Of a stretch of 64,000 nt of DNA, positions 7,284-40,075 are shown in pieces. How positions within the stretch are numbered: the stretch's first letter is position 1; the number at the start of each line of letters is the position of its first letter. The notes below the pieces were generated by a model. It was given only the letters and a program-made list of their open reading frames with translations, was not told where the DNA came from and made no database searches. The DNA is taken from the NCBI RefSeq assembly GCF_963855985.1, contig NC_087112.1, forward strand, positions 5,644,501 to 5,708,500. Reading direction: 5' to 3'. Source of the DNA: Ostrinia nubilalis (lineage: Eukaryota > Arthropoda > Insecta > Lepidoptera > Crambidae). Made by a program: the position numbers and the translations under genes.

Positions 7284-7391
7284 ATAGACCCCAACACAGC
7301 GTTCCTGCGGGCAGCGCGCGCCGGTCAGCTGGACACCGTCGTCGACCTGCTCGACTCCGGCGCCGTCAAGGACATCAACACATGCAACTCG
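7284..7391 (+). CDS. Ank2: Ankyrin exon A (start of ankyrin repeat domain)
   Basis: After a CAG acceptor the frame reads IDPNTAFLRAARAGQLDTVV and ends INTCNS before GTGAGT. This is the N-terminal cap repeat of ankyrins, whose family pattern is FLRAARAGNLE...INTSNA. It is 108 bp, 36 codons, phase 0 at both ends, so the upstream exon must also end in phase 0. The acceptor tract (CATTTGTCCTCGTTGCCGGCAG) is fairly weak. The 3' two thirds of this exon, plus its donor, is repeated six more times in the following intron. Confidence 0.9.
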
Positions 7392-8038
7392 GTGAGTCAC
7401 ACGATACAGTACGATACGATACGATACGATACGATACAATGTGAGCTCGACACCGTCGTCGACCTGCTCGACTCCGGCGCCGTCAAGGACATCAACACAT
7501 GCAACTCGGTGAGTCACACGATACAGTACGATACGATACGATACGATACGATACAATGTGAGCTCGACACCGTCGTCGACCTGCTCGACTCCGGCGCCGT
7601 CAAGGACATCAACACATGCAACTCGGTGAGTCACACGATACAGTACGATACCATACGATACAATGTGAGCTCGACACCGTCGTCGATCTGCTCGACTCCG
7701 GCGCCGTCAAGGACATCAACACATGCAACTCGGTGAGTCACACGATACAGTACGATACGATACAATGTGAGCTCGACACCGTCGTCGACCTGCTCGACTC
7801 CGGCGCCGTCAAGGACATCAACACATGCAACTCGGTGAGTCACACGATACAGTACGATACGATACAATGTGAGCTCGACACCGTCGTCGACCTGCTCGAC
7901 TCCGGCGCCGTCAAGGACATCAACACATGCAACTCGGTGAGTCACACGATACAGTACGATACGATACAATGTGAGCTCGACACCGTCGTCGACCTGCTCG
8001 ACTCCGGCGCCGTCAAGGACATCAACACATGCAACTCG
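7324..8038 (+). repeat. Tandem array of exon A tail plus splice donor (7 copies including the exon)
   Basis: Units contain the last ~67 bp of exon A (from CTCGACACCGTCGTC to CAACTCG), the GTGAGT donor and a short (GATAC)n stretch. Exon-end positions are 7391, 7508, 7625, 7732, 7834, 7936 and 8038, giving steps of 117, 117, 107, 102, 102 and 102 bp. Copies 1-3 share one reading frame and copies 4-7 another, because only the 107-bp step is not a multiple of three. No copy has an acceptor. Unit length varies only through the number of GATAC motifs. Confidence 0.9.
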
Positions 8039-8175
8039 GTGAGTCATACGATACAGTACGATACAATGCGATACAGTACGACGATGCAACACCATACAGT
8101 ACGATATAATACGATACAGTACGATACAAAACGATACAGTACAATACAACACGCTACGATATGATACAATACTCA
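8039..8175. repeat. Degenerate GATAC/AGTAC microsatellite
   Basis: A run of GATAC, AGTAC and related pentamers follows the last exon A copy. It looks like expansion of the same short motif that separates the copies upstream. The long overlapping open frames on both strands across 7224-8209 come from this repetition and not from genes. Confidence 0.85.
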
Positions 8176-9425
8176 CCCAGCCACGAGGCTTGCTCTGACC
8201 AGGTCTCACAATTTTAAGGAATTACGCTCTGGGAGATAGGAAGGCTACAAAGTAGATAACATCCTGAGCTTAGTTTAGGAATATACGAGTAGATACCTAA
8301 TCTCCGGAACAGTGATATTCTGATTCAAGACCCGAAGCATGGACGGGTATAATACCTATATTTATGTATTTAATCGTAGTTGTCTCATAATTTGGCTAGG
8401 TAAATGGTTTGAGAGTTAAAACCATTAATTAATTGCGAATATAAAACTATTAAGTAAAGAATTAAAAACAACAAATTCGTCATATACAATTTGTTTCCGA
8501 ATCAATCCATTTTAACGAGGATTGTGTCAAACTACGTGTCCCGACAAATTAATTAACGTTGATACGATATTAATGAGCGTGACACTGCAATTACAAGTCC
8601 AGCTGACTTAATTGGAATTTCAGACATGGAATGATAAATAAAAATTATAAGAGGACTGAATTGATACCAAATTTTTTCCTTTCACTTTCAGGCTTTTGCG
8701 AATTCTCAGCAAATAACCTTATTCTTCTACGAAATATACGAAAACTTCATGCATTAGCCGCCGAGGCATCTGGCATTGACCATCTTAACCTGCCTTCCGA
8801 AACATGAAATCAACTGAATAACATAAAGCGTAAAAACTCCTATGTGCATCCAACTTGGAAATAGGACATAGAATTAAGCCGAGAAAGACTTTTAAGTTCT
8901 GGCTGGAACACGCGTCTCGGCCATAGGAGTGAGGGAAAGAAAATGTTTATTATTATTTCAACTTATTATTATACAGACAACTCATCAAGCTTTAGCATTA
9001 AATTAAATGTTTAGTCTGATCATGGCGACTGTTTCTTATAACGGAATTGTTGTGATAGAGGTCGAAGTAATAAAATTCTCACCCTACTTACCTATTATTT
9101 CAATAGATCAATAGTTTTATATAGTTCACAGTCAGTCAAAGCGAGTCCGTTCTAAAACAAAAGAAGTAGGTTGGTCAAGTCTCCAATGAGTCGTACCTCT
9201 TACCTTATTTTAAACCACGGGGGAGAAACGTTGCGGTATTGCGCATCGAATGTGCGCAATTCAGAGAGAATTTTACTAACCTAAAGTTATAGTAGATATC
9301 TATTTGTATTTATTTATAAGAGAAACATCTATAGCAGTGTTCCATATGAGTGACAAGTTACTTTAGCGAAATCTGCGCAGAAAAGAATTGCTATGAGATT
9401 AAGTATAGCCAGGACGTACACTGCA

Positions 9426-9500
9426 AAGAATCCTACTAAGAAGTATTATAAATGCGAAAGTTAGGTTGTCTGGATGTTTGTTACCGCGGGCAAAAGCTAT
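9426..9500 (-). repeat. Moth interspersed repeat, same family as 61616-61819
   Basis: The stretch TATTATAAATGCGAAAGTTA followed by a TGTCTGGATGTTTGTTAC segment is the reverse complement of the tail of the repeat at 61616-61819 (CATCCAAACTTTCGCATTTATAATATTA). Only the tail is present. Confidence 0.55.
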
Positions 9501-9624
9501 AATGAAATAAAACTAATCCAACTTCATCAACGGTACTCGAGAAAAGTACGTTAAAATTAACCCTCTACAAACGAACCAGCGCTTTGAGACAAATATATTA
9601 CAAGTGCTTCTTCTTCTTTTCGTG

Positions 9625-10080
9625 TCGACAACAAACCTACACAGTGTCAGCCCAAAACTCCGCCACAAGAGTGGCGTTGTCAGTAGCACTCATCAAATCC
9701 TCCTGAGTGCAGTTGCTTGGGCACTCAGGGCACCCACTTTTCAATTACGACCCTGTGCCTCAAAGGCTAAAAAGCCGAAGCAATTTCGTAAAAAGTGTGT
9801 CCCCTCTCCTTCATGATGATCGGTCAAAAGAGAGATGCAGGTTATGGCGCGAGAGAGCTGATCTCCCCTGCCCTTTTGTCCCTATGTCTGAGAGTCCTCC
9901 ACCTGGACATGAGCTCCCCTGGCTTACCTGGAAGTCTTTAAATAGACTTCGGACGCAGGTTGGCCGTAGTAAGGACAATCTGGCCAGGTGGGGATTCTTG
10001 GATGGCTTGAACATGGAGTGCGGGTGCGGTTTTGTTCCCCAGTCGATGAGGCACCTGATTACAAGTGCTGAAATGTAATA
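9625..10080 (+). pseudogene. Non-LTR retrotransposon reverse transcriptase, C-terminal remnant
   Basis: The frame ending at 10078 contains WKSLNRLRTQVGRSKDNLARWG followed by MECGCGFVPQSMRHLI. This matches the pattern at the C-terminus of Jockey/CR1-like LINE ORF2 proteins (LNRLRTGxGR...KWG...C.CG...T..H). The upstream part is frame-broken, with overlapping frames at 9604-9816 and 9707-10078. There is no intact polymerase domain, so this is a dead fragment in the intron. The exact clade is uncertain. Confidence 0.65.
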
Positions 10081-14933: not shown

Positions 14934-15036
14934 AACGGACTCAACGCATTGCACCTCGCCGCTAAAGACGGCCACATATCGGTCGTAGAGGAGCTGCTAA
15001 AAAGAGGCGCCACCGTCGACGCCGCCACAAAAAAAG
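14934..15036 (+). CDS. Ank2: Ankyrin exon B
   Basis: Opens directly after TTTTTCAG with [18 protein letters not shown] and ends ATVDAATKK plus one base (phase 1) before GTAACA. 103 bp. It continues exon A in phase 0 (INTCNS then NGLNALH), the order seen in insect ankyrins. The donor is less than ideal (GTAACA). No downstream partial copy of this exon was found. Confidence 0.93.
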
Positions 15037-15407: not shown

Positions 15408-15601
15408 GCAACACAGCACTCCACATAGCATGTCTCGCGGGGCAAGAATCAGTGGCGAAGGCGCTACTGGGGGCGGGAGCGAAGGCCGACGCGCAGTCAG
15501 CCGCCGGGTTCACTCCTCTATACATGGCAGCGCAGGAGAACCACGCGGGCTGTGTCAAGATGCTGTTAGCAGCGGGGGCTAGCCAGACCCTCGCCACAGA
15601 G
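15408..15601 (+). CDS. Ank2: Ankyrin exon C
   Basis: Starts after TTTTGCAG and completes the split glycine codon from exon B, reading [20 protein letters not shown], then [13 protein letters not shown], and ends TLATE before GTGAGA. 194 bp, phase 1 in and phase 0 out. The open frames in other phases and on the opposite strand here are shadows. Two decayed copies of the exon tail lie just downstream (15685-15709 and 15757-15835). Confidence 0.93.
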
Positions 15602-15684
15602 GTGAGAATGTAACATTTAGATACTCTGACTATTTATTAATTTGAGATCTGGCTTGTGTGGAAAGCGTCTAAATGCAGGCAACA

Positions 15685-15835
15685 TCTGTCCCTCGCTACA
15701 GAAGTGATTATTTGTTGAACTTGCTCCTGCGGAAAGCACCTAGATGCAGGCAGCATAGGCTGTGAAAATATTCTGCTGGCATCGGGGGCTAGCTAGACCT
15801 TCGCCATGGAAGTGAGAATCCGACATTTGGATACC
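15685..15835 (+). repeat. Two decayed copies of exon C tail plus donor
   Basis: At 15757-15835 the sequence follows the exon C end closely: TGTGAAAATATTCTGCTGGC, then CGGGGGCTAGCTAGACCTTC, then GAAGTGAGAATC, matching the exon's TGTGTCAAGATGCTGTTAGC and its GTGAGAATG donor, and the likeness runs on into the intron (GACATTTGGATAC). A shorter, weaker copy lies at 15685-15709 (GTCCCTCGCTACAGAAGTGA). Both are mixed with RTE-like pieces (GATGCAGGCAGC). They lack acceptors and have substitutions that break the frame, so they are not exons. Confidence 0.7.
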
Positions 15836-16155: not shown

Positions 16156-16311
16156 GATGGATTCACACCGCTAGCAGTGGCCATGCAGCAAGGCCACGAC
16201 CGAGTGGTGGCCGAGTTATTGGAGTCAGACACCCGCGGCAAGGTGCGGCTCCCGGCGCTCCACATCGCTGCCAAGAAAAACGACGTCAAGGCCGCCACGC
16301 TGCTGCTAGAA
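16156..16311 (+). CDS. Ank2: Ankyrin exon D
   Basis: After TCGTCTCCAG the frame reads [20 protein letters not shown], then [19 protein letters not shown], ending TLLLE before GTAAGT. 156 bp, 52 codons, phase 0 both ends. The [11 protein letters not shown] segment is the signature of the long atypical repeat near repeat 5 that all ankyrins share. Confidence 0.95.
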
Positions 16312-17306: not shown

Positions 17307-17508
17307 AACGAACACAACCCAGACGCCTGCTCCAAGTCGGGCTTCACTCCCCTCCACATAGCGGCTCATTACGGCAACGTGGGCGTGGCGCGGGCGCTGC
17401 TGGCGGCCGGCGCCGACCCGGGCCGCGCCGCCAAGCACAACATCACGCCGCTGCACGTGGCCAGCAAGTGGGGGCAGCTGGCCATGGCCGACCTGCTCGT
17501 GGAGAACG
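17307..17508 (+). CDS. Ank2: Ankyrin exon E (parent of the 139-bp cassettes)
   Basis: After TTCCTCTTTCAG it reads [20 protein letters not shown], then [19 protein letters not shown], then [19 protein letters not shown] and LLVEN plus one base before GTGGGT. 202 bp, phase 0 in, phase 1 out. GC content is far higher than in the surrounding intron. The last 133 bp or so is the source of ten near-identical downstream copies. The longer frames that run past 17508 come from reading into the minisatellite and should not be taken as protein. Confidence 0.95.
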
Positions 17509-18026
17509 GTGGGTGGAGATGGGGACGAGCTGATAAAGATCTTGAGATGCGCGCAACGTTTTTGAGACGCCCGCTTACGTTCTTTAGACGCTCGCTCCGA
17601 ACTTTCTTGAAACGCCCGCACACAAGGTTCTTAGGACGCCCGCTCACGCGTTCTTTGGACGCCCGCTCACGCGTTACTTGGACACCCGCTCATGCCCGCT
17701 CACGCGTTCTTTGGACACCCGTTCACGCGTTCTTTGGACGCCCACTCACAAGGTTCTTAGGACGCCCTTTCACGCGTTCTTTGGATGCCCACTCACGCGT
17801 TCTTTGGACTCCCGCTCACGCGTTTTTTGGACGCCCGCTCACGCGTTCTTTAGACGCCCGCTCACAAGGTTCTTAGGACGCCCGCTCACCACGTGGTGAA
17901 CGTTCTCTAGACACTCGCTTACAATATTCTTTAGATACTAGCCTAAATGGGAACTAGAGCTCTATATTGTCTTAGTAACTTAGCTGCTAGAGCGGTCGCC
18001 ATTAAATCACACTCGCGTCCCATCAG

Positions 18027-18165
18027 TCCGGCGTAGTGGGCGTGGCGCGGGCGCTGCTGGCGGCCGGCGCCGACCCGGGCCGCGCCGCCAAGCACAACAT
18101 CACGCCGCTGCACGTGGCCAGCAAGTGGGGGCAGCTGGCCATGGCCGACCTGCTCGTGGAGAACG
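18027..18165 (+). pseudogene. Exon E cassette 2 (139 bp)
   Basis: Starts after CATCAG with TCCGGCGTAGTGGGCGTGGC, ends GAACG before GTGGGT. In the ankyrin frame it reads [18 protein letters not shown] and stays open to the donor. It lacks the first 63 bp or so of exon E. Phase 0 at the acceptor and 1 at the donor means that splicing it after exon E would shift the frame. Confidence 0.85.
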
Positions 18166-18469
18166 GTGGGTGGAGATGAGACAAGAGCTGATAAAGATCT
18201 TGAGACGCCCGCTCAGAAGGTTCTTAGGACGCCCGCTCACGCGTTCTTTGGACGCCCGCTCACAAGGTTCTTAGGACGCCCGCTCACGCGGTTCTTTGGA
18301 CGCCCATTCACGGACGTTCCCATTCACATTAGGACGGCCCATTCACATTAGGACGCTCGCTCACAACATCCTTTAGGTAATATCCTCAATGGGAACTAAG
18401 AGCTCTGTATTGTCTTAGTAACTTAGCTGCTAGAGCAGTAGCCATCGAATCACACTCGCGTGACATCAG

Positions 18470-18608
18470 TCCGGCGACGTTGGCGTGGCGCGGGCGCTGC
18501 TAGCGGCCGGCGCCGACCCGGGCCGCGCCGCCAAGCACAACATCACGCCGCTGCACGTGGCCAGCAAGTGGGGGCAGCTGGCCATGGCCGACCTGCTCGT
18601 GGAGAACG
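18470..18608 (+). pseudogene. Exon E cassette 3 (139 bp)
   Basis: Same layout after GACATCAG. Variant start TCCGGCGACGTTGGCGTGGC and CTGCTAGCGGCC instead of CTGCTGGCGGCC. Open frame, donor GTGGGT. First cassette of the 1,252-bp duplicated block. Confidence 0.85.
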
Positions 18609-19053
18609 GTGGGTGGAGATGGAGACAAGCTGATAAAGATCTTGAGACGCGCTGAAGTTCTTCCACTGCGCGCGCTAAAGACGCCCGCTCACATCGTTCT
18701 TAAAACGCTTGCTCTGAACTTTCTTAGGACGCCCGCTCACGCGTTCTTTGGACGCCCGCTCACGCGTTCTTTGGACGCCCGCTCACAAGGTACTTAGGAC
18801 GCCCGCTCACGCGTTCTTTGGACGCCCGCTCACGCGTTCTCTGGACTCCCGCTCACGCGTTCTTTGGACGCCCGCTCACAAGGTTCTTAGGACGCCCGCT
18901 CACAAGGTTCTTAGGACGCCCGCTCACATTGCTCTTAAAACGCCCACTAACAACGTTCTTTAGATACTACCCTCAATGGGAAAAAGAGCTCAATATTGTC
19001 TTAGTAACTTCACTCAGAGCAGTGGCTATTGAATCACACTCGCGTGACATCAG

Positions 19054-19192
19054 TCCGGCGCAGTGGGCGTGGCGCGGGCGCTGCTGGCGGCCGGCGCCGA
19101 CCCGGGCCGCGCCGCCAAGCACAACATCACGCCGCTGCACGTGGCCAGCAAGTGGGGGCAGCTGGCCATGGCCGACCTGCTCGTGGAGAACG
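19054..19192 (+). pseudogene. Exon E cassette 4 (139 bp)
   Basis: Same layout after GACATCAG. Variant start TCCGGCGCAGTGGGCGTGGC. Open frame, donor GTGGGT. Second cassette of the 1,252-bp block. Confidence 0.85.
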
Positions 19193-19721
19193 GTGGGTGG
19201 AGATGAGACGCGCTGATAAAGATCTTGAGACGCGTGGTTGGTTTGCGCGCGCTAAAGACGCTCGCTCACATCGTTCTTAAAACGCTCGCTCTGAACTTTC
19301 TTAAAACGCCCGCTCACGCGTTCTTTGGACTCCCGCTCACGCGTTCTTTAGACGCCCGCTCACGCGTTCTTTGGACGCCCGCTCACAAGATTCTTTAGAC
19401 GCCCGCTCACAAGGTTTTTAGGACATCCTCTCACAACGTTCGGAAAACGCCCGCTCACAAGGTTCTTAGGACGCCCCTTCACAAGGTTCTTAGGACGCCC
19501 GCTCACGCGTTCTTTGGACGCCCGCTCACGCGTTCTTTGGACGCCCGCTCATGCGTTCTTTGGACTCCCACTCACAAGGTTCTTAGGACTCCCGCTCACC
19601 ACTTACTTTAGACGCTCGCTCACAATATTCTTTAGATACTAGCCTCAATGTGAGCTCTGTATTGTCTTAGTAACTTAGCTGCTAGAGCAGTAGCCATCGA
19701 ATCACACTCGCGTGACATCAG

Positions 19722-19860
19722 TCCGGCGACGTTGGCGTGGCGCGGGCGCTGCTAGCGGCCGGCGCCGACCCGGGCCGCGCCGCCAAGCACAACATCACGC
19801 CGCTGCACGTGGCCAGCAAGTGGGGGCAGCTGGCCATGGCCGACCTGCTCGTGGAGAACG
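19722..19860 (+). pseudogene. Exon E cassette 5 (duplicate of cassette 3)
   Basis: Identical by eye to cassette 3, offset by 1,252 bp, including the GACGTTGGC and CTAGCGG variants. Open frame, donor GTGGGT. Confidence 0.85.
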
Positions 19861-20305
19861 GTGGGTGGAGATGGAGACAAGCTGATAAAGATCTTGAGAC
19901 GCGCTGAAGTTCTTCCACTGCGCGCGCTAAAGACGCCCGCTCACATCGTTCTTAAAACGCTTGCTCTGAACTTTCTTAGGACGCCCGCTCACGCGTTCTT
20001 TGGACGCCCGCTCACGCGTTCTTTGGACGCCCGCTCACAAGGTACTTAGGACGCCCGCTCACGCGTTCTTTGGACGCCCGCTCACGCGTTCTCTGGACTC
20101 CCGCTCACGCGTTCTTTGGACGCCCGCTCACAAGGTTCTTAGGACGCCCGCTCACAAGGTTCTTAGGACGCCCGCTCACATTGCTCTTAAAACGCCCACT
20201 AACAACGTTCTTTAGATACTACCCTCAATGGGAAAAAGAGCTCAATATTGTCTTAGTAACTTCACTCAGAGCAGTGGCTATTGAATCACACTCGCGTGAC
20301 ATCAG

Positions 20306-20444
20306 TCCGGCGCAGTGGGCGTGGCGCGGGCGCTGCTGGCGGCCGGCGCCGACCCGGGCCGCGCCGCCAAGCACAACATCACGCCGCTGCACGTGGCCAG
20401 CAAGTGGGGGCAGCTGGCCATGGCCGACCTGCTCGTGGAGAACG
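20306..20444 (+). pseudogene. Exon E cassette 6 (duplicate of cassette 4)
   Basis: Identical by eye to cassette 4, offset by 1,252 bp, with the GCAGTGGGC variant. Open frame, donor GTGGGT. Confidence 0.85.
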
Positions 20445-20973
20445 GTGGGTGGAGATGAGACGCGCTGATAAAGATCTTGAGACGCGTGGTTGGTTTGCGC
20501 GCGCTAAAGACGCTCGCTCACATCGTTCTTAAAACGCTCGCTCTGAACTTTCTTAAAACGCCCGCTCACGCGTTCTTTGGACTCCCGCTCACGCGTTCTT
20601 TAGACGCCCGCTCACGCGTTCTTTGGACGCCCGCTCACAAGATTCTTTAGACGCCCGCTCACAAGGTTTTTAGGACATCCTCTCACAACGTTCGGAAAAC
20701 GCCCGCTCACAAGGTTCTTAGGACGCCCCTTCACAAGGTTCTTAGGACGCCCGCTCACGCGTTCTTTGGACGCCCGCTCACGCGTTCTTTGGACGCCCGC
20801 TCATGCGTTCTTTGGACTCCCACTCACAAGGTTCTTAGGACTCCCGCTCACCACTTACTTTAGACGCTCGCTCACAATATTCTTTAGATACTAGCCTCAA
20901 TGTGAGCTCTGTATTGTCTTAGTAACTTAGCTGCTAGAGCAGTAGCCATCGAATCACACTCGCGTCCCATCAG

Positions 20974-21112
20974 TCCGGCGTAGTGGGCGTGGCGCGGGCG
21001 CTGCTGGCGGCCGGCGCCGACCCGGGCCGCGCCGCCAAGCACAACATCACGCCGCTGCACGTGGCCAGCAAGTGGGGGCAGCTGGCCATGGCCGACCTGC
21101 TCGTGGAGAACG
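20974..21112 (+). pseudogene. Exon E cassette 7 (139 bp)
   Basis: After CCCATCAG, start TCCGGCGTAGTGGGCGTGGC as in cassette 2. Open frame, donor GTGGGT. Confidence 0.85.
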
Positions 21113-21402
21113 GTGGGTGGAGATGGGGACAAGAGCTGATAAAGATTTTGAGCAACATTGTTCTTAGGACGCCCGCTCACGCGTTCTTTGGACTCCCGCT
21201 CACGCGTTCTTTGAACGCCCGCTCACAAGGTTCTTAGGACGCTCGCTCACAAGGTTCTTAGGACGCCCGCTCACAAGCTTCTTAGGACGCCCGCTCACAA
21301 GGTCCTTTAGATACTAGCCTCAATGGGAATTAGAGCTCTGTATTGTCTTAGTAACTTAGCTGTTAGAGCAGTCGCCATTGAATCACACTCGCGTCCCATC
21401 AG

Positions 21403-21541
21403 TCCGGCGTAGTGGGCGTGGCGCGGGCGCTGCTGGCGGCCGGCGCCGACCCGGGCCGCGCCGCCAAGCACAACATCACGCCGCTGCACGTGGCCAGCAA
21501 GTGGGGGCAGCTGGCCATGGCCGACCTGCTCGTGGAGAACG
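21403..21541 (+). pseudogene. Exon E cassette 8 (139 bp)
   Basis: After CCCATCAG, GTAGTGGGC variant. Open frame, donor GTGGGT. It lies only 290 bp after cassette 7, the shortest spacing in the array. Confidence 0.85.
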
Positions 21542-22166
21542 GTGGGTGGAGATGGAGACGAGCTGATAAAGAACTTGAGACGGGCGTAACGTTCTTGAGA
21601 CGCCCGCTCACGCGTTCTTTGGACGCCCGCTCACAAGGTTCTTAGGACACTCGCTCACAAGTTTCTTAGAACGCCCGCTCACAAGGTTCTCAAGACGTCC
21701 GCTCACATCGTTCTTAAAACGCTCGCTCTGAACTTTCTTAAAACGCCCGCTCACGCGTTCTTTGGACTCCCGCTCACGCGTTCTTTAGACGCCCGCTCAC
21801 GCGTTCTTTGGACGCCCGCTCACAAGATTCTTTAGACGCCCGCTCACAAGGTTTTTAGGACGTCCTCTCACAACGTTCGGAAAACGCCCGCTCACTAGGT
21901 TCTTAGGACGCCCCTTCACAAGGTTCTTAGGACGCCCGCTCACGCGTTCTTTGGACGCCCGCTCACAAGGTTCCTAGGACGCCCGCTCACAAGGTTCTTA
22001 GGACGCCCGCTCACAACGCTCTTTAGACACTCGCTCACTGGGCTCTTAAGGCTGCTTATAATATTCTTTAGATACTAGCCTCAATGGGAACTAGAGCTAT
22101 GATTTATTGTCTTAGTAACTTAGCTGCTAGAGCAGTCGCCATTGAATCCCACTCGCGTCCCATCAG

Positions 22167-22305
22167 TCCGGCGACGTGGGTGTGGCGCGGGCGCTGCTGG
22201 CGGCCGGCGCCGACCCGGGCCGCGCCGCCAAGCACAACATCACGCCGCTGCACGTGGCCAGCAAGTGGGGGCAGGTGGCCATGGCCGACCTGCTCGTGGA
22301 GAACG
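22167..22305 (+). pseudogene. Exon E cassette 9 (139 bp)
   Basis: After CCCATCAG, variant GACGTGGGTGTGGC, and GGGCAGGTGGCC instead of GGGCAGCTGGCC (leucine to valine). Open frame, donor GTGGGT. Confidence 0.85.
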
Positions 22306-22938
22306 GTGGGTGGAGATGGAGACGAGCTGATAATGTTTTTAAGACGCGCCGCTCAAGTTCATCTGCTTCGCGCGCTAAAAACGCCCGCTGACGTTCTTTA
22401 GACGCTCGCTCCGAACTTTCTAAAAACGCCCGCTCACAAGGTTCTTAGGACGCCCGCTCACGCGTCCTTTGGATGCCCGCTCACGCGTTCTTAGGACGCC
22501 CGCTCACGCGTTTTTTGGACGCCCGCTCACGCGGTCTTTGGACGCCCGCTCACGCGTTCTTTGGACTCCCGCTCACGCATTCTTTGGACGCCCGCTCACG
22601 CATACTTTGGACGCCCGCTCACGTTCTTTAGACGCTCGCTCCGAAATTTCTTGAAACGCCCGCTCACAAGGTTTTTAGGACGCCCTTTCACAAGATTCTT
22701 AGGACGCCGTCTCACGAGGTTCTAAGGACGCCTGTTCACAAGGTTCTTCAGACGCCCGCTCACAAGTTTCTTAGGACGCCCGTTCACGCGTTCTTTGGAA
22801 GCCCACTCACGCGTTCTTTAGACGCTCGCTCACAATATCCTTTAGGTAATATCCTCAATGGGAACTAAGAGCTCTGTATTGTCTTAGTAATTTAGCTGTT
22901 AGAGCAGTCGCCATTGAATCCCACTCGCGTGACATCAG

Positions 22939-23077
22939 TCCGGCAACGTGGGCGTAGCGCGGGCGCTGCTGGCGGCCGGCGCCGACCCGGGCCGCGCCGC
23001 CAAGCACAACATCACGCCGCTGCACGTGGCCAGCAAGTGGGGGCAGCTGGCCATGGCCGACCTGCTCGTGGAGAACG
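22939..23077 (+). pseudogene. Exon E cassette 10 (139 bp, closest to parent at its start)
   Basis: After GACATCAG, start TCCGGCAACGTGGGCGTAGC keeps the parental GGCAACGTGGGC. GAGAACG is followed by GTGCGT, a different donor. Open frame. Confidence 0.85.
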
Positions 23078-23501
23078 GTGCGTGGAGATGGGGACGAGCT
23101 GATAAAGATCTTGAGCAACATTGTTCTTGAGACGCCTGCACGCACTGTTCTTTGAACGCCCTCTCACGTTCTTCAAACGCCCGCTCATGCGTTCTTTGGA
23201 CGCCCGCACACGCGTTCTTTGGACGCCCGCTCACAAGGTTCTTAGGACGCCCGCTCACAAGGTTCTTAGGACGCCCGCTCACGCGTTCTTTGGACGCCCG
23301 CTTACAAGGTTATTAGGACGCCCGCTCACGCGTTCTTTAAACGCCCGCTCACGCGTTCTTTGGACGCCCGCTCACATGGTTCTTACGACGCCCGCTCACA
23401 AGGTTCTTTAGATACTAGACTTCATGGAAACTAGAGTATTGTATTGTCTTAGTAGTAGCTGCTAGAGCAGTCGCTATTAAATCACACTCGCGTCCCATCA
23501 G

Positions 23502-23640
23502 TCCGGCGTAGTGGGCGTGGCGCGGGCGCTGCTGGCGGCCGGCGCCGACCCGGGCCGCGCCGCCAAGCACAACATCACGCCGCTGCACGTGGCCAGCAAG
23601 TGGGGGCAGCTGGCCATGGCCGACCTGCTCGTGGAGAACG
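23502..23640 (+). pseudogene. Exon E cassette 11 (139 bp, last)
   Basis: After CCCATCAG, GTAGTGGGC variant. Open frame, donor GTGGGT. The minisatellite after it is only a few units long and ends at about 23760. Confidence 0.85.
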
Positions 23641-24120
23641 GTGGGTGGAGATGGAGACAAGCTGATAAAGATCTTGAGACGCCCGCTCACAAGGTTCTTA
23701 GGACGCCCGCTCACAAGGTTCTTTAGATACCCGCTCACAACAGTGAGCGTAGTTTCAAGTCGTTCTTGAGACGCAAGCGGGTTGTTTCCGAGAAGCTTGC
23801 TCACATCTTGACAATCACTCAAATGACCGCTTCTTTACTTACGCTAGAGGAAAGTCGATATTGTATTTCAACCTCCTCCTATATTCTTCTGATTAAGGGT
23901 CTGGTGGATTCCAAAACATTCAGGTATCCCCATAGGACTACTCAACCTTCATTGGATGGTTTCATCGTCAAAAATGTGTGTAATTTAATGTACTATGTAT
24001 GTAAGTATGTGTACGCGGAATTCTAATCAAGAACATGGTCAAAATACTTCAAATATCTGTGTTTCCTATTCTATGTATTCAAGACTTAACCCTAAACTAT
24101 ATTAACCAATTTGTCCCCAG

Positions 24121-24245
24121 GCGCCAACATAGCGGCAGTGACGCGGGACGGACTCACGCCCCTGCACTGCGCGGCGCGGTCGGGACACAGCAACGTGGTG
24201 TCCCGCCTCCTACAGCATGGGGCCCCCATCACTAGCAAAACAAAG
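24121..24245 (+). CDS. Ank2: Ankyrin exon F
   Basis: After TTTGTCCCCAG it completes the glycine codon of exon E and reads [20 protein letters not shown], then [19 protein letters not shown], ending KTK before GTACCT. 125 bp, phase 1 in, phase 0 out. The clean joining of E to F shows that the ten cassettes in between are skipped in a normal transcript. Confidence 0.94.
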
Positions 24246-24880: not shown

Positions 24881-25027
24881 AACGGCCTTACCCCTCTCCA
24901 CATGTCCGTTCAAGGCGAACACGTGGAGACGGCCAAGGTACTTCTCACAGAGGGCGCCCCCATCGATGACGTCACTGTCGACTACCTCACAGCGTTGCAC
25001 GTCGCGGCCCATTGTGGACACGTCAAG
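24881..25027 (+). CDS. Ank2: Ankyrin exon G (parent of the 159-bp array)
   Basis: After ATCTTTTCCAG it reads [20 protein letters not shown], then [19 protein letters not shown], then [10 protein letters not shown] before GTAAAG. 147 bp, 49 codons, phase 0 both ends. The usual family sequence has MAAQGEHVDAARILL, so this copy is a little diverged (MSVQ). The last ~105 bp plus 53 bp of intron is amplified downstream. Confidence 0.95.
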
Positions 25028-25975
25028 GTAAAGTGAACTCTATTTTGTATGGTGTAAAGATGATTATGGCTTGGTGAATAAGTGGAGACGGCCAAGGTGC
25101 TGCTCATAGAGAGCGCCCCCATCGATGACGTCACCGTTGACTACGTCACAGCGTTGCACGTCGCGGCACATTGTGGACACGTCAAGGTAAAGTGAACTCT
25201 ATTTTGTATGGTGTAAAGATGATTATGGCTTGGTGTATAAGTGGAGACGGCCAAGGTGCTGCTCACAGAGGGCGCCCCCATCGATGACGTCACTGTTGAC
25301 TACCTCACAGCGTGGCACGTCGCGGCACATTGTGGACACGTCAAGGTAAAGTGAACTCTATTTTGTATGGTGTAAAGATGATTGTGGCTTGGCAAATAAG
25401 TGGAGACGGCCAAGGTACTTCTCACAGAGGGCGCCCCCATCGATGACGTCACCGTTGACTACCTCACAGCGTTGCACGTCGCGGCACATTGTGGACACGT
25501 CAAGGTAAAGTGAACTCTATTTTGTATGGTGCAAAGATAATTATGGCTTGACGAATAAGTGGAGACGGCCAAGGTACTGCTCACAGAGGGCGCCCCCATC
25601 GATGACGTCACCTTTGACTACCTCACAGCGTTGCACGTCGCGGCACATTGTGGACACGTCAAGGTAAAGTTAACTCTATTTTGTATGGTGTAAAGATGAT
25701 TATAGCTTGGTGTATAAGTGGAGACGGCCAAGGTACTTCTCACAGAGGGCGCCCCCATCGATGACGTCACCGTTGATTACCTCACAGCGTTGCACGTCGT
25801 GGCACATTGTGGACACGTCAAGGTAAAGTGAACTCTATTTCGAATCACAAAGTTGATTGTGGCATGATGGCTCACAAAAGGTGCTCCCATTTATGACGTC
25901 ACTGTCGAGTCTGTCGACTATCTTACTGCGTTATATCTCGCAGTTCATCTACATATGTAGTGAACTCTATAAATG
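25028..25975 (+). repeat. Exact 159-bp array of exon G tail plus donor (5 extra copies and a decayed sixth)
   Basis: Exon-end positions 25027, 25186, 25345, 25504, 25663 and 25822 are exactly 159 bp apart. Each unit is GTGGAGACGGCCAAGG to CACGTCAAG, the GTAAAG donor and GTGAACTCTATTTTGTATGG...ATAAGT. Copies carry private changes: GACTACGTCACAG (Leu to Val), GCGTGGCACGTC (Leu to Trp), ACCTTTGAC, GTCGTGGCA. A strongly decayed further copy lies at about 25865-25975. No acceptor precedes any copy. Read-through meets TGA (AAG GTA AAG TGA) in most units. Confidence 0.92.
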
Positions 25976-26114: not shown

Positions 26115-26244
26115 GTTGCAAAGCTTCTTCTAGACCGAAACGCAGACGCGAACGCGCGAGCACTAAACGGCTTCACGCCACTTCACATCGCCTGCAAGAA
26201 GAACCGGCTGAAAGTCGTCGAGCTTCTGCTCAAATATGGAGCTA
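26115..26244 (+). CDS. Ank2: Ankyrin exon H
   Basis: After AAATTTTCAG it reads [20 protein letters not shown], then [19 protein letters not shown], then KYGA plus one base before GTGAGT. 130 bp, phase 0 in, phase 1 out. [16 protein letters not shown] matches the Ank2-type sequence nearly exactly. Confidence 0.96.
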
Positions 26245-26448: not shown

Positions 26449-26902
26449 TGTTAGCTATACTAAATTTTCAAAAACAAACGGCGAACAAACCTCTTTTCCA
26501 CAGTGCCAGCCGCGTGCTCAACCGGGCCCGGCGTATCTCCGAAATGCAGTTTGCTTGTGAAGTATTAGCACATATTGATGAGAAAGACCATAGTTCCATA
26601 GGGGCTGGATCCCGCACTCATTAGATTCACTTGATTTTGGAAATTGACAAACGCTTATGTGGTTGCCGAATTAAAGAACACACCGCTGTTGCGCACGGGC
26701 GTCCTTCCGAACTCAAAACTCTTGCGTCACTGGGGGGCGTCGCAATCGCAATCGCGAGCCTCGCTCCATAGGATTGGAAAGAATGTTGCCAGTTTGTGAT
26801 TAAAAAATGCAATTAAGAAAAGAGCAAATTCCTTCCAGTTTGTGTTGTTTTATCTTAAAAACTAAAATTAAGAAACTAATAAATATATTTCGGTACGAAA
26901 CA
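26449..26902 (-). repeat. 3' LTR of the BEL/Pao element
   Basis: 454 bp, same sequence as 32547-33000. Outer edge is preceded by TATGT at 26444-26448. Ends the element transcript. Confidence 0.93.
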
Positions 26903-26920
26903 TACCGCTCACCTTAAAAG
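26903..26920 (-). promoter_or_regulatory. Candidate polypurine tract of the BEL/Pao element
   Basis: In element orientation TTTTAAGGTGAGCGGTA directly precedes the 3' LTR. It is purine-rich but short, so the call is weak; the position next to the LTR is the main support. Confidence 0.35.
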
Positions 26921-27052
26921 TACCGAGTATCTTTTAACAAGACAAAACCTATGATAAGAAACTTACAAGTATCTAAGCTATTTGTAGAGTGAAACCTAAC
27001 TATAAACCTAAAACTACTCTAGCTTAACTTAGATGCAAAACGTACCTACTCC

Positions 27053-32422: not shown

Positions 32423-32521
32423 TTTGCGTTACAAAGATGGTCGCACGTGGAATGAAAAATGTGGTACGTATGTACGCTAAAATTACGATAAAACTACACA
32501 ATTGGAAGGAAAATGAAAATT

Positions 32522-32536
32522 CGGGTCGTAGGACCA
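32522..32536 (-). promoter_or_regulatory. Candidate primer binding site of the BEL/Pao element
   Basis: In element orientation TGGTCCTACGACCCG follows the 5' LTR after 10 bases. TGG is the complement of a tRNA CCA end, as needed for priming minus-strand DNA. I cannot name the tRNA without a search. Confidence 0.55.
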
Positions 32537-32546
32537 ACAAATAATA

Positions 32547-33000
32547 TGTTAGCTATACTAAATTTTCAAAAACAAACGGCGAACAAACCTCTTTTCCACA
32601 GTGCCAGCCGCGTGCTCAACCGGGCCCGGCGTATCTCCGAAATGCAGTTTGCTTGTGAAGTATTAGCACATATTGATGAGAAAGACCATAGTTCCATAGG
32701 GGCTGGATCCCGCACTCATTAGATTCACTTGATTTTGGAAATTGACAAACGCTTATGTGGTTGCCGAATTAAAGAACACACCGCTGTTGCGCACGGGCGT
32801 CCTTCCGAACTCAAAACTCTTGCGTCACTGGGGGGCGTCGCAATCGCAATCGCGAGCCTCGCTCCATAGGATTGGAAAGAATGTTGCCAGTTTGTGATTA
32901 AAAAATGCAATTAAGAAAAGAGCAAATTCCTTCCAGTTTGTGTTGTTTTATCTTAAAAACTAAAATTAAGAAACTAATAAATATATTTCGGTACGAAACA
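32547..33000 (-). repeat. 5' LTR of the BEL/Pao element
   Basis: 454 bp, upstream LTR in element orientation, next to the Gag start. It starts the transcript of the element. A 61-aa open frame at 32725-32910, also found in the other LTR, is not a gene. Outer edge is followed by TATGT. Confidence 0.93.
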
Positions 33001-33020
33001 TATGTTTATACCTACTACTA

Positions 33021-33656: not shown

Positions 33657-33856
33657 GCAAATCAGCGACCACGGAATCAGGCTTAACACCGCTCCACGTA
33701 GCAGCATTCATGGGTTGCATGAACGTGGCGCTGGTATTAGTTGGCGCGGGCGCGGCGGCCGACGCGGCCACGGCGCGCGGGGAGACGCCGCTGCACCTCG
33801 CGGCGCGCGCGCACCAGACCGACCTAGTGCGGGTGTTACTAAGAAACGGGGCTAAG
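33657..33856 (+). CDS. Ank2: Ankyrin exon I
   Basis: After TTTAATTCTCCAG it completes a serine codon from exon H and reads [20 protein letters not shown], then [19 protein letters not shown], then [18 protein letters not shown], ending LLRNGAK before GTAAGC. 200 bp, phase 1 in, phase 0 out. The middle is unusually GC- and alanine-rich compared with the family pattern (IVIYLLQHDASPDVPTV). Two partial copies lie in the following intron. Confidence 0.95.
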
Positions 33857-34437: not shown

Positions 34438-34598
34438 AGCTTCCAGCGTCCATGGGCTGCATGAACGTGGCGCTGGTATTAGTTGGCGCGGGCGCGGCGG
34501 CCGACGCGGCCACGGCGCGCGGGGAGACGCCGCTGCACCTCGCGGCGCGCGCGCACCAGACCGACCTAGTGCGCGTGCTGCTGAGGAACGGGGCTAAG
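34438..34598 (+). pseudogene. Partial copy of exon I with donor
   Basis: Starts within CAGCGTCCATGGGCTGCATG and follows exon I nearly perfectly to GGGGCTAAG, then GTGGGT. Differences near the end are silent changes (CGGGTGTTACTAAGA to CGCGTGCTGCTGAGG). No acceptor; the 5' third of the exon is missing. Confidence 0.85.
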
Positions 34599-35184
34599 GT
34601 GGGTCTAGTGTCAAGCTAGGTCCAACGCCACGCTAGGTCCAACGCCACGCTATGTCCAACGCCACGCTAGGTCCAACGCCATGCTAGCTCCAGCAAAAGC
34701 TGGGTCTAACTAGATCCAGTGTCAAGCTGCGTTTAGGTCCGACGTCAAGCTAGATGCAACGCTTACCAAGGTCTAGGTACATCAACAAGCTCGGTCCAGT
34801 ATTAAGCTACGACCAGTGCCAAGCTAGCTCCAGGTCTGGCACCAAGCTAGGTCCACCCCGATGTTGATCCAGCGCTAATCTTCCTCCAACGCCAAGCTAC
34901 TATAACTAGGTTTGGCGTCAAGATAGGTCCAACGCCACGCTGGGTCTAGCTCAAGCTGGGTCTAGATCCAGCGTCAAGCTAGGTCTGGGTCCGGCGTCAA
35001 ACTAGATGCAACGCCTAGCATGGTCTAGGTCCAGCAACAAGCTAGGACCAGCACCAAGCTAGCTCTAGGTCTGGCAGCTATGTCAGCCCCGTGCTAGATC
35101 CAGCGCAAATCTTGCTCCAACGCCAAGCTACTATAACTAGGCTCGGCGTTAAGCTAGGTCTAGCTCCAAGATAGGTCCATGGCT

Positions 35185-35284
35185 GCATGTAGCAGCGTTC
35201 ATGGGCTGCATGAACGTGGCGCTGGTGCTAGTTGGCGCGCACCAGACCGACCTGGTGCGGGTGTTGCTGAGGAACAGGGTTAAG
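35185..35284 (+). pseudogene. Shortened partial copy of exon I with donor
   Basis: Begins GCATGTAGCAGCGTTCATGG, a little further into the exon front than the other copy. It lacks the alanine-rich middle by a deletion at GTTGGCGCGCACCAGACC (likely between GGCGCG repeats). Ends AACAGGGTTAAG, then GTGGGT. Confidence 0.85.
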
Positions 35285-35572
35285 GTGGGTCCAGTGCTAA
35301 GGTAGATGAAATGTCAAGCTAAGTTCAGCATTTAGTCAGACGGAACGCCAATATAGACTAAGCTAGGTCTAGGTTTAGAACTATGCTTGGTCTAGTGCCA
35401 AGCCTTGTCTTGGTCTGGCGTCAATCTAGATGCACATGGTGCGAGCGCATCAACTCGATCTCGAAGAATAAATGGCACCGTGGACTCATCTAAATATGTT
35501 GTCTTTTAGTCAAAATCAACAAGCTCTTAAGACTTTTAACAATCTCCTATAATCTGATCTACTTGTTACCAG

Positions 35573-35726
35573 GTGGAGGCACGAGCCCGCGAAGAACAGA
35601 CACCGCTACACGTCGCAGCGAGACTCGGTCACGGCGACATCGCAGCGTTGTTGCTGCAACACGGCGCCGACGTCGCAGCTGCCACCAAGGACCACTACAC
35701 GCCGTTGCACATCGCTGCTAAAGAAG
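35573..35726 (+). CDS. Ank2: Ankyrin exon J
   Basis: After CTTGTTACCAG it reads [20 protein letters not shown], then [19 protein letters not shown], then [13 protein letters not shown] with the last codon split. 154 bp, phase 0 in, phase 1 out, donor GTACCA, followed at once by (CAT)n. A weak copy of the exon end plus donor is at 35822-35858. Confidence 0.95.
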
Positions 35727-35821: not shown

Positions 35822-35858
35822 ACACAATACAGCTGTCAAAAAAGGTATCATCATCAGT
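35822..35858 (+). repeat. Possible decayed copy of exon J end plus donor
   Basis: ATACAGCTGTCAAAAAAG followed by GTATCATCATCAG resembles the exon J end ATCGCTGCTAAAGAAG followed by GTACCATCATCATC. It is short and could be chance; it is listed because it fits the pattern seen at the other exons. Confidence 0.35.
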
Positions 35859-36073
35859 TCTTGGACATAGATATTTGGTAGGATTTTCGAGAGATTAGCT
35901 GAATATTCTGACGCTTATATTTCAGTGCAAATGCTCCTGCTCGCACCGCTAGATTCTCGTCTCGTCTAGGTTCAAAACAATAGGGGATTGGACTCTGTTC
36001 ATACCACGAAAAGTTGTTTTATCACGTATCCATTATTGTGATTAAACTTAATCATTATTTATCTTCTCCCCAG

Positions 36074-36307
36074 GCAAAGAAGAAGTCGCCTCCATCCTGC
36101 TCGATCACAACGCGCCAATCGAAGCAGAGACTCGTAAAGGCTTCACTCCACTACATCTAGCGGCTAAGTACGGAGATATGGGCGTGGCCAGACTACTCTT
36201 AGCGCGAGGAGCGCAGCCCGACGCGCCAGGCAAATCTCACATCACTCCGCTACACATGGCCACGTATTACGGACACCCGGATATAGCGCTGCTTTTGCTG
36301 GACAAAG
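36074..36307 (+). CDS. Ank2: Ankyrin exon K
   Basis: After TCTTCTCCCCAG it reads KEEVASILLDHNAPIEAETR, then KGFTPLHLAAKYGDMGVAR, then HITPLHMATYYGHPDIALL, ending LLDKG (split). 234 bp, the longest exon in the window, phase 1 in and phase 1 out, about two and a half repeats. Donor GTATTT is weak. Confidence 0.95.
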
Positions 36308-36957: not shown

Positions 36958-37056
36958 GAGCGTCGCCGCACTCCTTGGCCAAGAACGGCCACTCGGCGCT
37001 GCACATCGCTTGCCGGCACAACCACCCAGATATCGCGTTCGCTCTGCTAGAGCACG
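36958..37056 (+). CDS. Ank2: Ankyrin exon L
   Basis: After GTTGTGTTGTAG it reads (G)ASPHSLAKNGHSALHIACR, then HNHPDIAFALLEH plus one base before GTGAGT. 99 bp, phase 1 in and out, exactly 33 residues, so the exon is one repeat in size and could be skipped without a frame break. An inserted repeat element starts 11 bp after its donor site. Confidence 0.93.
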
Positions 37057-37067
37057 GTGAGTTTATC

Positions 37068-37481
37068 AACCGACTTCAAAAAAGGAGGAGGTTCTCAATT
37101 CGACCCGTATGTTTTTTTTTTTTTTTTTTTCTATGTTTGTTACGCGATAACTCCGCCAATTATGAACCGATTTGAACAAATCTTTTTTCGGCGTATAGGT
37201 AATACCTCAAGGGTGGTCCCATTTAAATTTAATAATAGAAAAAACAACCCCCAAGGGTGGAAAATTGGGGATGAACTTTTTTATACGCAATATCTCCGCC
37301 GATTATAAATCAATTTGAACGATAATTTTTTTGTTGAATCGGTATTATCAAAAGGGTGGTTTCATGAGAATTTGAAGAAAATATTTCACCCCCAAGGGTG
37401 GAAAATTGGGGATGAACTTTTTGATACGCAATATTTTTAATTTTTAGTTTTTTTTTGTGTTCACGCATTTGAAGTCGGTTT
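37068..37481. mobile_element. Small inverted-repeat element next to exon L
   Basis: Starts AACCGACTTCAAAAAAGGAG and ends TTTGAAGTCGGTTT, a short terminal inverted repeat. Inside are two blocks of CAAGGGTGGAAAATTGGGGA and a poly-T run. This type, with GGAGGAGGTTCTCAATTCG near the start, is widespread in moth genomes. Non-coding. The donor of exon L was kept. Confidence 0.7.
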
Positions 37482-38611
37482 TATTTTTTTAAAAAGTTAA
37501 TTATTACATTACACTCACACTATAATGCTTCAACCACACCAACGCGTACAGATCGCCATCGCCGGCTTGATCATTTAAGCCAGTGGTTCCTAACCTTTTC
37601 AATGTCACTACCCCTGTGAACAAGTATGAGAATTGAGTTTACCCCCTAGCTAATTTAAAATAGTTGAAACCACAATAATCTCGGCGGTCTCCTGCGGCTC
37701 TACAGAATCTAAGAATTTCGTGGTGGAAGTAAATTTGCCCATCGTAAAATGTCTCTGTAACCGAAGGCAATTTTTTGCTAAATAAGTTTGGCACGGCCTA
37801 TAACGTACTATTATTTTGTTTATTGATTGACGGAGCCACTGATTTAAGCCAATGACAGGTCGCGCGACCCATGACAATCCGCGCGACCTGTCATTGGCCT
37901 ATGATCGCGCCGGCGATGGCGATCTGCACGCGTTGGTTTGGTTAAAGCATTAATTCATTGTAAATAGTTTTGTCACTCGACGAATGTGGACTCCATTCGA
38001 CACACACACAAACACGGCATCACACACCTGCCCTAAAGTAGTTGTAAATATAGTATACCCCGACGATACACTACCGATATATGTACATACATAATTATAT
38101 CGTTAATCTGTACCTACATTCTGACTTTGTATGAACCGAATAAACTATTTTTCTTTCTTTCTTATGAAACCAGTGGCATCGATAGCTCAGTAATTTTAGT
38201 TTTATCAAAACAGTATTCGAGAATACCTACGCTAAAAATATTTTCTACAGCCAGGCTGTACAATAGTAGACAACTGATCCACACTCCTACGGCAGAAGTT
38301 TCAATTAACTTTTTTCCGTCACAATCAGTTTAATTTGAAAAACAATCTACACCTCGCCTCCCTATCTGCACGACACGGCAGGCTTTTGTGTATGTGTTAC
38401 ATGTTTAAACTTAATCTTCAAGCCTTATAAACTGAAAATTCTAATAAATAAATATTCTGGAAATCAAGACAAGTTACTGAATATCGCGCAATATAGTCTG
38501 GCTAAAACCCATGAGGTCTAATGAAGGTCATCCCAAATCACTACACACGATTTAAAAGACTTCAAGATTGAGAAAGTAGCTGAACTAAACCTTTCTTCTC
38601 TGTTCTCTTAG

Positions 38612-38740
38612 ATGCCGACCCTGGAGTTAAGTCAAAGGCAGGGTTCACACCACTGCACATGGCAGCCCAGGAAGGTCATGAGGACTGCGTGGAGATGCTC
38701 ATCGAGCGAGGGGCTGATGTCAACGTACCTGCCAATAACG
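38612..38740 (+). CDS. Ank2: Ankyrin exon M
   Basis: After TGTTCTCTTAG it completes an aspartate codon and reads ADPGVKSKAGFTPLHMAAQ, then EGHEDCVEMLIERGADVNV, then PANNG (split) before GTAAAC. 129 bp, phase 1 in and out. Confidence 0.94.
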
Positions 38741-38789
38741 GTAAACAATATTGCGCACTATATCAACTATATTGCGTAGATATAAAATT

Positions 38790-38870
38790 AGGCTGAGTTG
38801 CACCGACTTCTTTAACATGACAGATTTTTGACGTTTGTTTAAAGTTAAATTAAGATAGTGCAACTCAGTA
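38790..38870. mobile_element. Short MITE, GGCTGAGTTGCACC family, shortened copy
   Basis: GGCTGAGTTGCACC at the left, GATAGTGCAACTCAG at the right as an inverted end, with GACAGATTTTTGACGTTTG inside. Same family as 40283-40400, 43875-43989 and 54696-54801. Part of the inside is missing. Confidence 0.7.
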
Positions 38871-39286
38871 ATTTTGTTTTTATCTACTCAGTAACTCTGG
38901 CGCAGTTCTTTGAATACTTTTTGAAGAATATAACGGTCAATGCCGAGATAATTGTGAAAGAAAACCAATTGTAGTTACGCAATAAACCATAAAAATTATG
39001 GCACTCGGTCATTAAACAGGATAATGATTTTACCATTGAACTAGTTGCATTAAAATAAAACTTATTATGTTATTTATATCACTAATCAGATTGGAAAACT
39101 GACTGGCTTTAAGAGACTCATTAAACATAACCAGACAAGTTTATTATCATATAATTTTATTGTCATTAAAGTGTCCTTTTATCATATTATATTTTTAATT
39201 TATAATCCAGGGGAATTATGCAGTGTACAGTGGCACTACAGTAGAAATTAACTTTCCGATCAGTCAATAATAGCAGCTTTTTTCAG

Positions 39287-39485
39287 GTCTAACACCCGTA
39301 CACCTAGCAGCCTCCGAAGGTCGCACAGCAGTTCTGAAGTCTCTATTAGCTGCTGGCGGTCACTGCAACGCGCGAACTAGAGATGGCTACACTCCTTTAC
39401 ATGCTGCAGCTCATCATGGTCACCATGCCGCGGCCAGGGCGCTTATAGAGGCAGAGGCTGACGTCACTGCGAGGGCAGCTCACGG
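39287..39485 (+). CDS. Ank2: Ankyrin exon N
   Basis: After GCTTTTTTCAG it reads LTPVHLAASEGRTAVLKSLL, then AAGGHCNARTRDGYTPLHA, then AAHHGHHAAARALIEAEAD and ends TARAAHG with the last codon split after two bases, before GTAAGT. 199 bp, phase 1 in, phase 2 out; the next exon supplies the third base. Confidence 0.94.
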
Positions 39486-39540
39486 GTAAGTTGGGAGTAA
39501 TAGCTGTATAAGTGACCAGTAGCAGGATGGCTGTATATGC

Positions 39541-39685
39541 AGCTAGTAACTGCTGGTGGTCTCTGCAACGCGCGGACTAGAGATTGCTACACTCCTTTAC
39601 ATGCTGCAACTCACCATGGGCACCATGCCGCGGCCAGGGCGCTTATAGAAGCAGATGCTGACGTCACTGCGAGGGCAGCTCACGG
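39541..39685 (+). pseudogene. Partial copy of exon N with donor
   Basis: The exon end is repeated 200 bp downstream: GTAACTGCTGGTGGTCTCTG, AACGCGCGGACTAGAGATTG, to GCAGCTCACGG then GTAAGT. Changes include GATGGC to GATTGC (Gly to Cys) and GAGGCAGAGGCT to GAAGCAGATGCT. No acceptor in front. Confidence 0.85.
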
Positions 39686-40075
39686 GTAAGTTAAGATAAG
39701 ACTGTATATCAGTCCCTAGTAACTGCACTAGCTAGTAACGTGTTGTTTCTCAGAACCAAGAAAGTACCGGTAATCATCGTAGAGTTTTCTATCATGCTGC
39801 AGCATCGCCAAGAGCAGTTTTTAATTAAATTAGAAATAAATGCAGTATAAGAGCTATATATCAGGTGGCTGAAGCCAGCAGTAAAACTAAATACGCCCTA
39901 TTTGTAAGAGCAAAGGCTACAAACTGAAAACTAAAGTAAAAGAGGGAAATAACACGCCTCTTTCGTTTCATGACACCGTTACTATTATGAATGATATCGT
40001 GATAACCGTCTGTCTTCCTTTTCTAACAGCTGATTATCATAGAATTTAAAAAATATTTTTTATTGTTTTGTTCAG

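Follow-up and report, generated by a model that had tools for sequence, protein, structure and literature searches.

We analysed a window of 64,000 nucleotides (nt) from the moth Ostrinia nubilalis (NCBI RefSeq assembly GCF_963855985.1, contig NC_087112.1, positions 5,644,501 to 5,708,500 of the forward strand; positions below are those of the window), which carries an ankyrin gene with 16 exons, named A to P. In this gene, we found 25 clear partial exon copies lying 3' of six of the 16 exons (A 6, C 1, E 10, G 5, I 2, N 1). Each copy starts within the exon, continues through the exon end and the GT of the splice donor, and ends in the start of the intron; the GT is intact in 25 of 25 copies. 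Neither BLAST nor 32 acceptor-probe searches found a copy that contains the intron end, the acceptor and the exon front. The best explanation, in which we have moderate confidence, is a repeat expansion linked to guanine-cytosine (GC) content and filtered by splicing, which would make this ankyrin gene a lepidopteran case of exon stuttering.

Exon tail copies in the ankyrin gene

The copies were called by BLAST self-comparison of the exons with their flanks (150 nt), followed by donor-by-donor alignment, and their exon-derived part is about 54–155 nt long. The arrays are as follows.

7441..8075, + strand, six tail copies of exon A (donors 7509, 7626, 7733, 7835, 7937, 8039)
15687..15834, + strand, tail copies of exon C (the clear one 15758-15811, donor 15812, 79% identity)
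18023..23741, + strand, ten tail copies of exon E (donors 18166, 18609, 19193, 19861, 20445, 21113, 21542, 22306, 23078, 23641)
25073..25908, + strand, five tail copies of exon G (period 159 bp; donors 25187, 25346, 25505, 25664, 25823)
34444..35327, + strand, two tail copies of exon I (34444-34598, donor 34599; 35182-35284, donor 35285)
39543..39708, + strand, one tail copy of exon N (donor 39686; 90% identity)

Copy identity spans nearly identical (A) to 79% (C). The A copies are 97.5–100% identical mutually and to exon A and carry an ACGAT pentamer in the spacer, the clear G copies differ by 2–7%, and the E copies are separated by spacers with a 23-bp minisatellite that have diverged (∼10% apart) around a nearly invariant exon part. 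Some copies are degraded: the other C copy is reduced to 18 nt with a donor-like site at 15704, an extra decayed G fragment lies at 25871-25908, and the second I copy (35182-35284) is internally deleted. The I copies sit among 17–25-bp minisatellites and, overall, minisatellite arrays of 23, 25, 17 and 5 bp share introns with the tail copies. Tandem Repeats Finder reported arrays in four of the six introns behind stuttering exons (A, E, G and I; none listed in C and N) and in one of the nine other introns, where the array is 37 bp. The duplication joints, judged by eye, have AGCT common to both sides at A and short matches at the other exons.

The original prediction, made from the letters of the window, had placed such copies behind seven of the sixteen exons, at 6, 2, 10, 5-6, 2 and 1 copies and perhaps one more at exon J, with no copied acceptor anywhere. 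Aligning each exon with its downstream intron, the check it had suggested, gave tail copies at six exons and on the donor side only, and the described anatomy of exon tail, GT donor and intron start was borne out, as were the absence of acceptor-side copies and the range from identical to badly decayed. The numbers stand for A, E, I and N, while G is better described as five copies plus a decayed fragment and C as one clear and one decayed copy. The seventh exon falls away: the match at J is just 25 nt at 84% identity including an ATC microsatellite, which we did not count even though it beats a Markov null (z 8.7).

Within the E array, positions 18400-19713 are an exact repeat of 19652-20965 (1,314 bp), which points either to duplication in the very recent past or to an error of assembly. 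Conceivably, an assembly artefact could have inflated or invented the arrays more widely, and both this exact recurrence and the near identity of the A copies are what such an artefact would leave. Nevertheless, most other copies differ from each other (∼10% in the E spacers, 2–7% in G, and more in I, N and C) and six separate introns are affected, all on the donor side; we therefore give an artefact very little credence.

The 16 exons (7284-40775, + strand) have GT-AG introns and join into a single open ankyrin frame of 794 residues, and the first donor of every exon is the one used in this model of the ankyrin domain. The translation is colinear with human ankyrin (4rlv, E 2.4e-299, query 2–787 of 794), and an ankyrin of Trichogramma is the top-scoring relative at 59% identity (among the best 120 of 7,516 matches). 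The introns measure 347–7,542 nt, and at least 246 nt once the arrays are subtracted. ZU5 exons were sought 3' of exon P by tblastn with five ankyrin queries (two partial) and none was found, so that there is no second stretch of the gene usable as a control. The exons are as follows.

7284..7391, + strand, exon A, 108 nt (source of the array is the tail 7324-7391)
14934..15036, + strand, exon B, no copies found
15408..15601, + strand, exon C, 194 nt
16156..16311, + strand, exon D, no copies found
17307..17508, + strand, exon E, 202 nt (source of the copies is the tail starting at 17366)
24121..24245, + strand, exon F, no copies found
24881..25027, + strand, exon G, 147 nt
26115..26244, + strand, exon H, no copies found
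33657..33856, + strand, exon I, 200 nt
35573..35726, + strand, exon J, with the doubtful 25-nt donor-side match alone (35832-35856)
36074..36307, + strand, exon K, no copies found
36958..37056, + strand, exon L, no copies found
38612..38740, + strand, exon M, no copies found
39287..39485, + strand, exon N, 199 nt
40076..40169, + strand, exon O, no copies found
40667..40775, + strand, exon P, no copies found

One-sidedness of the copies

The acceptor probes were run upstream and downstream of each of the 16 exons, over stretches of up to 6.5 kb (4 kb for the outer flanks of A and P). Three matches were flagged (A, G and I, all downstream), and all three were traced to exon sequence already within a tail copy. 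An unflagged match upstream of exon J (score 26, null maximum 24, z 3.8) is to the coding part of exon I's copy, by ankyrin-repeat likeness. At 15674-15684, 3' of exon C, there is an 11-nt exact match to the acceptor border of exon C (score 22, null maximum 20, z 3.7, unflagged); it is probably due to chance, though it is the sole hint of an acceptor-side copy.

We then estimated how often such placement would be expected, defining local direct-repeat regions as those of at least 50 nt repeated within 4 kb. Nine such regions exist in the window and seven lie within the gene, of which six span a donor and none an acceptor. Uniform placement of units of the same length would give 0.39 donor-only units of the seven (P = 1.9e-7 for six or more). 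With placement matched for GC, where the arrays and one transposon were excluded, 2.0 of six would be expected against the six of six seen (P = 9.5e-4), which indicates that GC accounts for part of the concentration of copies on exons. The only in-gene region without exon contact lies in intron L (37141-37434), with two copies of ∼150 bp that are 77% alike.

The contrast of donor to acceptor is 6:0 (sign test, P = 0.016 one-sided and 0.031 two-sided). Given just six events and this two-sided value, ordinary tandem duplication next to GC-rich exons could have landed on donors six times by luck; the joint probability that all six exon-touching events are tails is, nevertheless, ∼6e-4 under uniform and 0.007 under GC-matched placement (products calculated by hand, with whole-exon and internal classes included), and we consider luck a highly improbable reason for the pattern.

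GC content and strand skew at stuttering exons

The last 60 nt of the stuttering exons have a mean GC of 0.650 (n = 6) compared with 0.567 in the others (n = 10; P = 0.005), and exon 3'-end GC separates the two groups at six window lengths (P 0.004–0.04). When the exons are ranked by the GC of their ends, the top four of the 16 are all stuttering, and A shares the fifth place with D and L. No difference was found between stuttering and other exons in the GC of the exon fronts, and neither whole-exon GC (P = 0.07) nor GC at third codon positions (GC3, P = 0.25) separates them significantly. The intron starts that follow stuttering exons are also higher in GC (P = 0.009).

These intron starts differ in G skew on the coding strand as well, at +0.52 in the first 20 nt compared with −0.10 after the other exons (P = 0.009). 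The difference has P < 0.05 at six of eight window lengths (20–80 nt, P 0.009–0.034) and is not significant at 100 and 150 nt; at 60 nt the skew is near zero in A (0.04) and I (0.00). Exon ends and intron ends showed no significant skew difference between stuttering and other exons.

The skew is indicative of a donor-side mutational bias as strongly as of an effect of GC alone. Exon ends and donors could themselves be duplication hotspots, with little part for selection, if, for example, RNA-DNA hybrids or unusual DNA structures form more readily at G-rich intron starts as the gene is transcribed. Such mutational polarity would agree with donor-spanning units exceeding both the uniform and the GC-matched expectation, and with a skew confined to the intron starts. 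On the other hand, GC alone covers part of the excess (2.0 of the six), and the skew was picked post hoc from eight window lengths, weakens past 80 nt, almost vanishes in A and I at 60 nt and is located within the arrays; we regard mutational polarity as the less likely explanation, though a live rival.

Splice sites of the copies

In C, E, G, I and N, translation continued beyond the first donor runs into a stop codon ahead of the donor of the next copy. In exon A, the frame remains open for another 345 nt downstream of the donor (7392-7736, including the stop codon), and the second and third donors would add 39 and 78 residues in frame, respectively. In A, E, G and N, the donors of the copies score as high as the original ones; those in I fall slightly short (9.3 compared with 10.4), and those in C score lower (6.3 compared with 9.4). 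The best AGs near the copy starts score 1.0–5.9, and the 16 real acceptors have a median of 8.45 (range 0.2–12.1).

In human data, the upstream one of two donors of equal strength is preferred when the flanking introns are long and, in minigenes with strong sites, is used exclusively under exon definition; among competing acceptors, too, the upstream one is favoured, though less so under exon definition (PMC9225289). By this rule, a tail copy would be silent, and a copied acceptor or a whole copied exon may not be.

Divergence within the copies

In E, the exon part varies at 5 of 129 sites among the eight distinct copies (two exact repeats were dropped), compared with 9 of 37 sites in the intron start (P = 5e-4) and 16 of 58 in the upstream spacer (P = 8e-6). 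Five of the eight distinct copies match exon E at all 129 sites. Exon I differs from its first copy at 6 of 145 sites, all synonymous, of which five lie within the last 27 nt, so that the first 118 nt (GC 0.75) hold one difference. The same contrast as in E and I is seen in N (11 of 143 in the exon part and 11 of 25 in the intron part). We read the low divergence of the exon halves as a probable result of gene conversion, by which exon and copies would exchange sequence where they are rich in GC (E and the core of I).

Selection on the E copies is a rival to conversion, and it would apply if these copies acted as alternative exons or regulated splicing as decoy donors. In all ten E copies, the frame and the GT are intact and an in-frame AG lies 139 nt 5' of the donor; four of the five variable sites in their exon parts are synonymous (P ∼0.035, calculated by hand against a synonymous expectation of 31%), and the in-frame second and third donors of exon A point the same way. 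The in-frame AG of the E copies, however, scores −0.2 or −3.1 (eight copies scored), below all 16 real acceptors, and the encoded peptide is identical in nine of ten copies past the breakpoint codon, so that no diversity would be gained. The weak AG and the unchanged peptide count against selection. Moreover, swapping in an E copy would cut into an ankyrin repeat, and replacement changes accumulate in the G, N and C copies, with a stop in C too. Functional copies are, therefore, an improbable explanation. The fourfold sites of E are variable at 4 of 29, which is not significantly different from the spacer (P = 0.18).

Proposed mechanism and points against it

We propose that exon stuttering proceeds in two steps. 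Firstly, a local, GC-linked repeat expansion would act on GC-rich exon 3' ends and the adjoining intron and produce tandem units of ∼100–750 bp. Secondly, splicing would filter the products. A unit that extends from within the exon to the downstream intron leaves the complete exon first, followed by tails that have a donor and lack the exon's acceptor; under exon definition, the first donor would presumably win in vivo, and the tails would be removed along with the intron. If a unit contained an acceptor or a whole exon, the transcript would gain one more of these, and such units would be lost, presumably by selection. Where the arrays are GC-rich (E and the core of I), the copies are probably still rewritten from the exon by gene conversion. 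The filter could thus account for what is missing, and GC-linked, perhaps skew-linked, instability for where copies arise. The original prediction had offered a hotspot at exon-intron borders or the removal of acceptor-side copies that harm splicing. The hotspot gains support, with the qualification that it partly follows GC, as the exon-end values indicate; removal fits the published competition data (PMC9225289) and may account for the missing class. Both are supported and may act together.

Several observations weigh against this explanation. The sidedness comprises six events in one gene and one assembly. The own spacers of E and I are GC-rich, so that their units have no acceptor class under GC matching, and the test of sidedness there is confined to A, C, G and N. 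A filter alone cannot raise donor-spanning units above intron-only units, and GC matching leaves an excess (2.0 compared with six). The intron starts after stuttering exons (e.g., 7392-7411 and 17509-17528) show a G skew on the coding strand, as would also be expected from a donor-specific mutation process, and the differences in GC and skew are post hoc and uncorrected, with intron starts that themselves belong to the arrays. Among the real acceptors, five of 16 have scores under 5.9, and the weakest is outscored by 411 of 1,714 intronic AGs; because of this overlap, the acceptor matrix discriminates only roughly and weak acceptors at the copies are possible. No contrast between exon and intron parts is seen in G (8 of 104 and 5 of 45), C (12 of 54 and 4 of 23) or A (1 of 60 and 1 of 24), and the synonymous state of four of the five variable E sites is what protein-level selection would also yield. 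Lastly, acceptor-side copies are tolerated in birds, at a rate that the main text of PMC12954441 leaves unstated.

Comparison with known systems

The original prediction knew of no described system of this kind. That does not hold, as exon or sequence stuttering was described for chicken in 2026 (Genome Biol Evol, PMC12954441), the one description of partial exon copies of this kind that we found in the open-licence PubMed Central literature. Its main text reports 236 introns in 115 genes, of which 190 introns lie on avian dot chromosomes and 46 elsewhere, and mentions GC-rich gerbil genes as data not shown. The avian arrays have 1–44 copies, exon parts of 20–187 bp and spans of 112–23,555 bp; the copies carry the adjacent donor or acceptor, the phenomenon is linked to GC-rich genes, and the intron shown in detail involves the left exon (PMC12954441, main text). 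Donor and acceptor occur once each in that main text, which does not count the copies by side and nowhere uses the word insect.

Judged by this main text, our case agrees with exon stuttering in several ways (PMC12954441). Both have partial copies of the adjacent exon that span its border and lie in the neighbouring intron (here, at six of 16 exons), in repeat-rich introns with clustered imperfect tandem copies, and in both the coding exon is unaltered (here, the 794-residue frame is colinear with human ankyrin). The copy numbers, exon parts and spans found here fall within the avian ranges. The GC-rich coding sequence is shared as well, though here the enrichment is confined to the 3' 60 nt of the exons and is not significant for whole exons or GC3. 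The two differ in that our host is lepidopteran and not on an avian dot chromosome, which is the place of discovery and not a structural criterion; in the 6:0 bias to donors; and in that within-species length variation, one of three main features in birds, has one assembly to set beside it here (PMC12954441).

New here are the insect host, the restriction to tails, the setting at GC-rich exon ends followed by G-skewed intron starts, and exon halves of E and I that diverge less than the adjoining intron. Stuttering in an insect would make a cause confined to avian dot chromosomes less likely and favour GC-rich coding sequence as what the cases share. If the one-sidedness is found genome-wide, the scars would be a natural experiment on splice-site choice, with identical donors beside intact genes and acceptor copies missing. 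Given their conserved exon halves, E and I would offer a test of exchange between exon and intronic copies. Our tentative extension, possible at best, is that GC-rich coding sequence is generally prone to stuttering throughout the animals and with a fixed polarity, in which tails multiply and fronts do not, caused either by first-donor splicing or by G-skewed intron starts that make the donor side break and be recopied; the arrays would then be reservoirs for gene conversion, and the scar would assay exon definition in vivo.

Other tandem systems resemble these arrays in part. Introns are said to be gained by tandem duplication, in which a duplicated exonic AGGT yields a new intron; this is likewise a tandem duplication within a gene that includes splice signals, whereas the copies here are inside existing introns that separate the exons of one colinear frame. 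Mutually exclusive exons of the Dscam type form an array of exon-like copies in one intron, unlike the copies here, which have no exon front and acceptor and, in E, encode the same peptide; the AGs near the copies score in the range of the five weak real acceptors. Minisatellites are a general class of repeat in introns, but here the repeat unit is coding sequence plus donor, at six separate exons of one gene.

Other repeats in the window

Intron H contains an antisense long terminal repeat (LTR) retrotransposon (26449-33002), whose two 456-bp terminal repeats are 100% identical, which is indicative of recent insertion; from the look of its long reading frame, we take it to be of the BEL/Pao type. 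A transposon fragment lies in the intron before exon G, and its named matches are moths and butterflies (among the best 120 of 219 matches, many of them unnamed), as expected of a lepidopteran host. An element of ∼50 bp is present at 38818-38868, 40286-40335 and 54748-54797, one copy being inverted; compared with the first, the two others have 88% and 92% identity, and it is likely a small dispersed repeat. Tandem repeats with units of 121 and 135 bp (∼2 and 2.5 copies) are found at 57180-57408 and 59050-59388, respectively, with no identified exon nearby.

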